Positions 54,126 to 55,655 of a stretch of DNA of 64,000 nucleotides are shown one piece after another. Every line of letters starts with the position of its first letter. Within the stretch, counting starts at the first letter, position 1. Source of the stretch: Thermoflexales bacterium (lineage in GTDB: Bacteria; Chloroflexota; Anaerolineae; J036; Brachytrichaceae); the NCBI GenBank assembly GCA_025057935.1, contig JANWUW010000071.1:1-64000 (forward strand), in the 5' to 3' direction. The position numbers were made by a program, and so were the translations under genes. The notes beneath the pieces are model-generated. The model made no database searches, was not told where the DNA came from, and was given only the letters and a program-made list of their open reading frames with translations.

Positions 54126-55655
54126 ATGGTGAACTTTCCGATTCTCACCTTGATCATGGTCGCGCCGCTGATCGGCGCTGCGATCATCTTGCTGCTTCCC
54201 AAAGACCGCGCAGACGCGATCAAGGTCGTGGCAGCAGCGGCGTCGTTTGTCTCAATGGCGCTTGCGTTCGTGGTCTTCCTCGCCTACGACCGCACGCAGG
54301 GCGGTTTTCAGTTTCAAGAGAAAGTGCCCTGGATCCCTGAGTTCGGCATCAGCTACCACCTTGGCGTGGACGGGTTTGCCGCGCCGCAACTGTTGCTGAC
54401 GGGGATTGTGATGTTCTCAGCAGTGCTCGTCTCGTGGCAGGTCGAAGATCGCCCGCGCGAGTTCTTTGCCTTCCTGCTGCTGTTGGTCGCTGGTGTCTTC
54501 GGCAGCTTCATGGCGCTGGACTTATTCCTGATGCTTATCTTCTACGAGCTGGTGCTGTTCCCAGTGTATGTGCTGATCGCGGGCTGGGGTAGCAAGCGCC
54601 GCGAATACGCCGCAATGAAGCTGACGATCTACCTCTTCGTCGGGTCGCTAGTGGCGATCATCGGCATTTTGGCGCTTTACTTCCAAGCCGGCAACTCGTT
54701 TAACTTCTTCGACTTGAAAGACGGCGTGGCGAAGTTGCCGAACTCTGTGGAAGTGCAGCGAACGTGGTTCCTGCCAGTGTTCGTTGGGTTTGGCGTGCTT
54801 GCCTCGCTGTGGCCGCTGCACAACTGGTCGCCCGATGGTTACGCCGCTGCACCCACAGCAGTCTCGATGCTGCATGGCGGCGTGTTGAAGGCGACAGGCG
54901 CCTATTGCGCGCTGCGCTTCGGTGTGCAGATCATGCCCCAAGGCGCGAGCTACTGGATGCCAGTGGTGGTGTTCTTCGCCATGGCGGGCTTGATCTACGC
55001 CGCGCTGATCGCGTTCCGCCAGACTGACCTTAAGTACATCATCGGCTTTTCCTCAGTGAGTCACTTGGGGTTGGTGCTGTTGGGCATTGCAGCGTTGAAC
55101 GAGTATGGCTTGAACGGCGCAGGCTTGGAGCTGTTCGCAGGGGGCGTGATGACCGGCTTGATGTTCGCGCTGGTGGGCATGATCTACGAGCGTTCCCATC
55201 GCCGCGACCTCACTGAGCTGAGCGGGCTTGGGCGCGTAATGCCGTTGGCGGGCGTGGGTTTCGTCATCGGCGCGCTGACGCTCATGGGCATGCCTGGCTT
55301 GCCCGGCTTCCCAGCGGAGGTGCAAATCTTCATGGGCTTGTGGAGCGCCTCGACAACGCCGAGCCAAATGTTCCCTGGCGCGACCAACGGATGGTACGCA
55401 GTAGTCGCAGTGGCGGGCATCTTGGCTGTGGTGATCAACGCAGCGTGGACGCTGCGCGTGGCACAGCGCGTGTACTTCAGCGAGCCGCAACATCCTGAGC
55501 TGCTCTCGCTGCCGGGATTAACGCCGTTGGAGAAGGTTGCCATCGGGTTGATGTGCGGTGTGCTCATTGTCGTCGGCGTGCTGCCGAACACAGTGATGAG
55601 TGCGATTGCTGCCGGCGTGCAGACCATCGTGCAGGGGTTTGCAACGGCAAGCTAA
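54126..55655 (+). CDS. NADH-quinone oxidoreductase subunit M (second copy, missing the helix-7 lysine)
   Basis: This 509-residue protein is clearly NuoM-like: LGVDGFAAPQLLLTGIVM, then Glu141 in LIFYELVLFPVYVLIAGWG, and LKYIIGFSSVSHLGLVLLG. Lys255 is kept in GVLKATGAY. But the broken-helix segment reads GVLASLWPLHNWSPDGYAAAP, where the first copy has [21 protein letters not shown], so the pump Lys is Leu225 and the helix-breaking Pro is Ser. It is either a specialised extra pump or spacer of a '2M' complex I. A GAGGT site precedes ATG 54126; a TTG at 54120 is a weaker start. Confidence 0.93.
   Translation: MVNFPILTLIMVAPLIGAAIILLLPKDRADAIKVVAAAASFVSMALAFVVFLAYDRTQGGFQFQEKVPWIPEFGISYHLGVDGFAAPQLLLTGIVMFSAVLVSWQVEDRPREFFAFLLLLVAGVFGSFMALDLFLMLIFYELVLFPVYVLIAGWGSKRREYAAMKLTIYLFVGSLVAIIGILALYFQAGNSFNFFDLKDGVAKLPNSVEVQRTWFLPVFVGFGVLASLWPLHNWSPDGYAAAPTAVSMLHGGVLKATGAYCALRFGVQIMPQGASYWMPVVVFFAMAGLIYAALIAFRQTDLKYIIGFSSVSHLGLVLLGIAALNEYGLNGAGLELFAGGVMTGLMFALVGMIYERSHRRDLTELSGLGRVMPLAGVGFVIGALTLMGMPGLPGFPAEVQIFMGLWSASTTPSQMFPGATNGWYAVVAVAGILAVVINAAWTLRVAQRVYFSEPQHPELLSLPGLTPLEKVAIGLMCGVLIVVGVLPNTVMSAIAAGVQTIVQGFATAS

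Follow-up and report, generated by a model that had tools for sequence, protein, structure and literature searches.

The window, the whole stretch of 64,000 nucleotides of DNA analyzed here, lies on one contig (C11) of a 2.27-Mb Chloroflexota genome in 108 contigs. A complex I operon with the gene order nuoA-H-J-K-L-M1-M2-N occupies positions 47585-57168 of the window, with the following features.

47585 to 50322, plus strand: nuoA, nuoH, nuoJ and nuoK, in the same operon as nuoM2
50333 to 52540, plus strand: nuoL with an extended lateral helix (profile score, alignment)
52325 to 52402, plus strand: insertion of 26 residues within the lateral helix of NuoL, a mark of 2M complexes (aligned against the canonical NuoL that this genome also encodes)
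52551 to 54119, plus strand: nuoM1, encoding a canonical NuoM with Lys237 (profile score, alignment, model)
54126 to 55655, plus strand: nuoM2, encoding a NuoM without the TM7 lysine (509 aa from the ATG at 54126; the reading frame can also be opened from a TTG at 54120)
55678 to 57168, plus strand: nuoN (likely start at the ATG at 55678; open reading frame from a GTG at 55600)

The operon presents the traits of a 2M complex I: a second nuoM between nuoL and nuoN, a NuoL extension of about 26 residues, and nuoB, a fused nuoCD (653 aa) and nuoI set apart on a separate contig (C104; L381:8123-11449), where no nuoEFG genes adjoin them. The nuoL-M1-M2-N order and these traits are shared with the 2M complex I of Chloroflexota as it is presented in PMC7117926 and PMC9040806, which, following Chadwick et al. 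2018, place 2M complexes in Chloroflexota, Nitrospira and other groups. In these papers the second NuoM counts as one more proton pump, and an absent TM7 lysine goes unmentioned, whereas the NuoM2 of the window is devoid of it. A second, canonical complex I is encoded on another contig (C82), with one NuoM bearing the usual TM7 lysine (FAIKVPTFPLH) and with NuoE, NuoF and NuoG identified by position and sequence. The sole true NuoF of the genome belongs to this canonical operon, and the 2M complex appears, on its gene content, to be headless. As separate observations, the NuoL of the window has an extra stretch of about 38 residues, rich in His (51476-51589; HGHHHVSHAAHGNHGSHAAHSNEEHDGHSMHSDASHAH), which its canonical counterpart in this genome lacks, and a gene for a divergent member of the Cpn60/TCP-1 family (148 bits) converges with nuoN from the minus strand (57235-58881), adjoined by genes for an RtcB-like protein (58927-60156) and Hsp20 (60342-60803).

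The product of nuoM2 scores 420.5 bits against the TIGR01972 profile, for a family cut-off of 263.8. Its residues were assigned by alignment and by a comparison of conserved columns between 160 NuoM sequences without the TM7 lysine (Lys-less) and 74 sequences with it (Lys-bearing), as follows.

54546 to 54548, plus strand: Glu141, the TM5 glutamate (E. coli E144), retained (alignment)
54798 to 54800, plus strand: Leu225 (CTT), at the site of the TM7 lysine (NuoM1 Lys237; E. coli NuoM K234) (alignment)
54804 to 54806, plus strand: Ser227 (TCG), in place of the proline of the TM7 break (NuoM1 Pro239), so that KIPIWPLH reads LASLWPLH (alignment)
54873 to 54875, plus strand: His250, a TM8 histidine at the position of NuoL H254 and of the MrpA switch (column comparison)
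54888 to 54890, plus strand: Lys255, the TM8 lysine, one residue before the canonical position and in the NuoN register (alignment)
55140 to 55142, plus strand: Gly339, in place of the TM11 histidine (E. coli H348), particular to the NuoM2 family of the window (alignment)
55317 to 55319, plus strand: Glu398, the TM12 glutamate (E. coli E407), retained (alignment)

The LysTM7-GluTM5 pair that defines a canonical pumping subunit is therefore absent from this NuoM2, which has Leu225 instead. An earlier note on this DNA had read both TM7 substitutions from the letters, and the codons and aligned columns agree with it on the change of Lys237 to Leu225 and on that of proline to serine. Its statement that Glu141 and Lys255 are retained is correct for Glu141 and only partly so for Lys255: a TM8 lysine is there, but one residue early, with Ala256 at the canonical position (VLKATGAY, versus LLKLGGY in NuoM1 and E. 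coli), in the same register as the TM8 lysine of the NuoN of the window. The earlier note does not mention His250 or the TM11 site; the TM11 histidine replaced by Gly339 in the family of the window is found in 155 of the 160 Lys-less and in all 74 Lys-bearing sequences. The NuoM-type TM12 glutamate, here Glu398, is present in 160/160 Lys-less sequences. A shifted TM8 lysine was also observed at two other loci (L080 and L150), both of which still have the TM11 histidine.

A sequencing, assembly or alignment error has a practically negligible probability as the source of these residues, which recur in independent genomes of the same genus, family, class and phylum and in other phyla. The lysine is absent from every NuoM2 ortholog examined, from 97% down to about 48% identity, so that its presence in close orthologs, which the earlier note had named as a ground for refutation, was not found, and chance as well as an assembly or sequencing error is ruled out. 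The loss of residues regarded as essential might also be expected of a decaying or non-functional duplicate, but dN/dS values of NuoM2 against five relatives range from 0.03 to 0.16, the same as for NuoM1 and lower than for NuoN; purifying selection thus acts on NuoM2 as strongly as on NuoM1. The gene is moreover intact in every relative, and its product belongs to the same clade as proteins that serve as the sole NuoM. Decay, ruled out by the dN/dS values, is accordingly held to be exceedingly improbable.

An AF2 model of NuoM2 (44 rows) reached a pLDDT of 95.6 and a pTM of 0.94. In this model TM7 consists of a helix at 207-223, a break at 224-233 and a second helix at 234-241, and a second break falls at 387-393 (TM12), in keeping with the antiporter-like fold; in the NuoM1 model the TM7 break is located at 238-245, directly after Lys237. 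The exchange of the helix-breaking proline for serine, pointed out in the earlier note, is hence real, but it leaves TM7 unstraightened, since the model still breaks at 224-233. Foldseek searches with the NuoM2 model returned solved structures of NdhD1 and of NuoM from Paracoccus, mycobacteria and E. coli, with TM-scores of about 0.9. No solved structure of a member of the Lys-less clade was found; the best PDB sequence matches share approximately 30% identity and, in the alignments displayed, carry the lysine. NuoM2 shares with canonical NuoM/ND4 (E. coli, Paracoccus, Thermus; cyanobacterial NdhD1) its fold, GluTM5, a TM8 lysine (here in the shifted register), a TM10 histidine, GluTM12 and the broken TM7 and TM12. 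Lys-less NuoM differ from these proteins in the replaced LysTM7, in a rewritten TM7-TM8 stretch and, in most members, in a TM8 histidine.

The absence of the lysine extends to the second NuoM of 2M clusters in general, as the earlier note had proposed to verify. For 73 Chloroflexota 2M clusters taken from a sample of the phylum, the alignment places the lysine in 73/73 NuoM1 and in 0/73 NuoM2, where the residue at that site is Leu, or Thr in two cases. The same pairing of a Lys-bearing NuoM1 with a Lys-less NuoM2 is found in the 2M clusters of Acidobacteriota and Verrucomicrobiota, so that every 2M cluster seen combines one NuoM of each kind. The TM7 lysine is kept by NuoL (79/80) and NuoN (93/94) in comparable clusters. 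One of the 2M clusters, Acidobacteriota-like in its nuo genes, comes from a metagenome-assembled genome titled Klebsiella pneumoniae (L238), probably a mislabelled bin.

A scan of 85,000 species genomes looked for NuoM genes whose codon at the lysine site has T in the middle and thus encodes a hydrophobic residue, using a pattern that, when checked on 91 loci, matched Lys-less and never Lys-bearing NuoM. The scan, whose matches carry no frequency information, returned at least 119 loci in at least nine phyla, those among the listed matches being Chloroflexota, Bacteroidota, Verrucomicrobiota, Acidobacteriota, Bacillota, Myxococcota, Actinomycetota, Rokubacteria and Thermodesulfobacteriota. Lys-less NuoM occur in two situations. 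The first is the 2M cluster (Chloroflexota, Acidobacteriaceae, Opitutales and Akkermansia-like Verrucomicrobiota), with a Lys-bearing M1 followed by a Lys-less M2; the second is the cluster with a single, Lys-less NuoM. The lateral-helix stretch of NuoL separates 2M from 1M complexes without exception among about 150 NuoL (94-98 aa versus 68-69 aa), and a Lys-less protein is the only NuoM of normal-length complexes in Chloroflexota, Bacteroidota, Bacillota, Verrucomicrobiota, Myxococcota, Rokubacteria and Actinomycetota, including many Bacteroidota, Desulfitobacteriaceae and Dehalococcoidia-like genomes. The NuoM is Lys-less in 15 of the 18 Chloroflexota single-NuoM clusters fetched, and in all 26 NuoM read from the Desulfosporosinus family (that of D. 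hafniense not among them). No TIGR01972 protein other than the Lys-less NuoM is encoded in ten genomes: Tidjanibacter, Hoylesella, Salegentibacter, Mediterranea, Alistipes, Eudoraea, Desulfallas, Desulfosporosinus, Ca. Dichloromethanomonas and a Dehalococcoidia MAG. The biased scan had given the impression that all Bacteroidota, the phylum of Mediterranea, are Lys-less; this was ruled out by an even sample of the phylum, in which the Lys-less pattern appears in 7/148, while 20/20 lower-scoring NuoM that were read keep the lysine and the 30 top-scoring loci are also Lys-bearing.

The lysine loss is hence not tied to the role of an extra subunit, because Lys-less NuoM also act as the sole NuoM of normal-length complexes. 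The earlier note had taken the loss as a mark of the extra subunit as such, an attribution that single-NuoM clusters and their ordinary three-pump complexes rule out. Judged by the sequences compared, the feature is real, conserved and a property of a wide NuoM subfamily, and was misattributed to the extra subunit. Seven Verrucomicrobiota loci with a GILVSLWPFHTW-type NuoM (L168, L180, L220, L257, L264, L273 and L276) were also seen to encode a NuoN without a TM7 lysine motif recognizable by a simple pattern, and Verrucomicrobiota complexes with a GILVSLWPFHTW-type NuoM may be short of more than one TM7 lysine.

Several other conserved columns changed along with the lysine. In Lys-less NuoM, LysTM7 is replaced by Leu, Phe, Ile or Thr, mainly Leu; the TM4 glutamate, present in 58/74 Lys-bearing sequences and otherwise mostly Gln, gives way to a small or apolar residue; WLPDA becomes W[SAV]P-x-G; and the Glu preceding APT becomes Ala or Ser. 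A TM8 Leu is changed to His in 119/160 Lys-less and 0/74 Lys-bearing sequences, and the TM7-TM8 stretch of the former reads L-[AG]-[GS]-x-[WF]PxH[TN]WSPDG-x-x-A-APTAVSM. GluTM5, a TM8 lysine, the TM10 histidine and GluTM12 are strongly conserved. The earlier note had also named a compensating Lys or Arg as a finding that would speak against it; among the conserved columns, the membrane part of the 160 Lys-less sequences shows no Lys or Arg that the 74 Lys-bearing ones do not already have.

The TM8 histidine occupies the place of NuoL H254 and MrpA H273, which lie on a TM8 bulge and can face the Lys-Glu pair or the exit (PMC13358369, PMC7419157), and most Lys-less NuoM can therefore be said to have an MrpA-like TM8 with both His and Lys. 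In NuoM and NuoN, LysTMH8 has been described as the only protonatable TM8 residue (PMC7419157). Most Lys-less NuoM share their spacing, H-x5-K, with the MrpA encoded in the same genome; the likeness to the NuoL/MrpA switch, drawn from sequence comparison, is qualified by the fact that the histidine sits in a NuoM and that the family of the window reads H-x4-K. The histidine is missing in a quarter of the Lys-less sequences, namely in the NuoM2 of Acidobacteriaceae and Opitutales and in Chitinophagales and Anaerolineaceae, which rules it out as a universal substitute for LysTM7. Because these groups do without it, it is better regarded as a common companion of lysine loss than as a requirement, as far as the aligned columns go. 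Anaerolineaceae-type NuoM2 without the TM8 histidine (L204, L231, L099 and L109) present a Glu two residues before the TM8 lysine (LAGVEMKVGAF).

Phylogenetic trees were inferred by quick maximum-likelihood searches (LG+G4, no bootstrap). In a tree of 105 NuoM with the TM7 columns removed, a single branch (99% SH-aLRT) separates Lys-less from Lys-bearing sequences, with exactly one state change, a number that no shuffle matched. A Chloroflexota-only tree using all columns supports the Lys-less group at 100%, the 2M NuoM2 at 99% and the single Lys-less NuoM at 98%. The NuoM2 of the window groups inside the supported Lys-less clade, consistent with its hydrophobic residue at the K234 site and its TM8 His250. 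Since one branch and one state change split both types, the simplest account is a single loss of the lysine, in a lineage of NuoM that would later serve both as sole NuoM and as NuoM2. The NuoM1 of all 2M clusters form one clade (99%), which suggests a shared origin of the 2M state of these phyla or the transfer of a cassette. As to direction, the 2M state may have been gained, or M1 may have been lost in single-M lines.

Published accounts give each antiporter-like subunit a GluTM5-LysTM7 pair, a TM12 Lys or Glu and, at the center, LysTM8, which is a His in NuoL (PMC10212512, PMC9271201). LysTM7 of NuoM is reported to be retained by almost all species, and E. coli NuoM loses its function when K234 is mutated (PMC3046159). 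Against this background, NuoM2 probably represents an old and widespread NuoM subfamily that lost its TM7 lysine once and operates as a working axis subunit without the GluTM5-LysTM7 ion pair, a reading based on the comparisons and models above. The E. coli K234 mutation and current models, in which LysTM7 is central in every antiporter-like subunit (PMC10212512, PMC9271201), count against it, as do the missing TM8 histidine in a quarter of the Lys-less sequences and the lack of a phenotype upon nuo deletion in B. fragilis (PMC7002350). Growth of D. hafniense on lactate or pyruvate depends on its 11-subunit complex (PMC11238625), and this dependence, together with the 26/26 Lys-less NuoM of its family, suggests by analogy that Lys-less complexes are functional; no proton-pumping measurement on a Lys-less complex was found in the literature searched. 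The path of protons or charge could run from GluTM5, through the TM8 histidine where present and waters, to LysTM8, a histidine and GluTM12. The step between LysTM8 and GluTM5 would be carried by the TM8 histidine, standing in for LysTM7 as it does for a second base in MrpA and NuoL, or by water, and GluTM5 might be balanced by a TM12 residue of the neighboring subunit. The gene order L-M1-M2-N suggests that NuoM2 adjoins NuoN in the complex, and in 2M complexes the Lys-less subunit came to be paired with a NuoM1 that bears the lysine and with an elongated NuoL helix.

NuoM2 could instead be a charge relay or spacer that passes on an electrostatic signal with no proton uptake or release, in which case no extra proton of the 2M complex would move through it. 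The clade-wide loss of LysTM7 speaks for this proposal, as do, in the family of the window, the additional loss of the TM11 histidine and the displaced TM8 lysine. In current models a clear periplasmic exit exists only in NuoL (PMC10212512, PMC7419157), and NuoM may therefore be a relay in any complex I. The strong conservation of GluTM5, the TM8 lysine, the TM10 histidine and GluTM12 argues the other way, however, and in the many complexes where a Lys-less protein is the sole NuoM a pure spacer would leave just two pump-type subunits. A relay or spacer role is thus considered rather unlikely.

A change of job is a further candidate: Lys-less NuoM would occur mainly in headless complexes, without NuoEFG, that are fed by ferredoxin or another donor and differ in driving force or in the ion used, which might be Na+, so that the ion-pair gate is unneeded. 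Prevotella and B. fragilis have a headless NDH-I according to published descriptions (PMC6560451, PMC7002350), and relatives of the Prevotella, Bacteroides and Desulfitobacterium strains with 11-subunit complexes (PMC6560451, PMC7002350, PMC11238625) have a Lys-less clade member as sole NuoM; these complexes have one NuoM and a normal NuoL helix, and that of the window two NuoM. NuoF is absent from Tidjanibacter, Hoylesella, Mediterranea, Alistipes, Eudoraea and the Dehalococcoidia MAG, all with a Lys-less sole NuoM, and the placement of NuoF on C82 and of nuoB-CD-I without nuoEFG on C104 fits the same pattern. This absence of NuoF was nonetheless counted among Lys-less genomes only, several of which carry NuoF-like proteins, and the sequences show no sign of Na+ use. 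Although held to be quite improbable, a change of job is compatible with a working subunit devoid of the ion pair rather than exclusive of it. Lys-less NuoM may, as a side observation, accompany headless complexes in general.

The clade, with its retained chain of residues, shows that evolution can drop LysTM7 while preserving the others. Several mechanisms rest on the opening and closing of the LysTM7-GluTM5 pair (PMC9271201, PMC10212512), and a Lys-less clade that spans at least nine phyla, and is often the sole NuoM that a genome encodes, constitutes a natural experiment on such ion-pair models. Tentatively, a second widespread class of NuoM may couple and pump without the TM5-TM7 pair, the opening of which would then not be required in NuoM, and a 2M complex would contain one subunit of each class and never two alike. 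The pairing of one Lys-bearing with one Lys-less NuoM in every 2M case seen bears on the number of protons moved, to which NuoM2 might or might not add one. The Lys-less subfamily was not pointed out in the literature searched, although Chadwick et al. may have noted it. The two NuoM types can be told apart by a sequence mark, WSPDG...SMLH.
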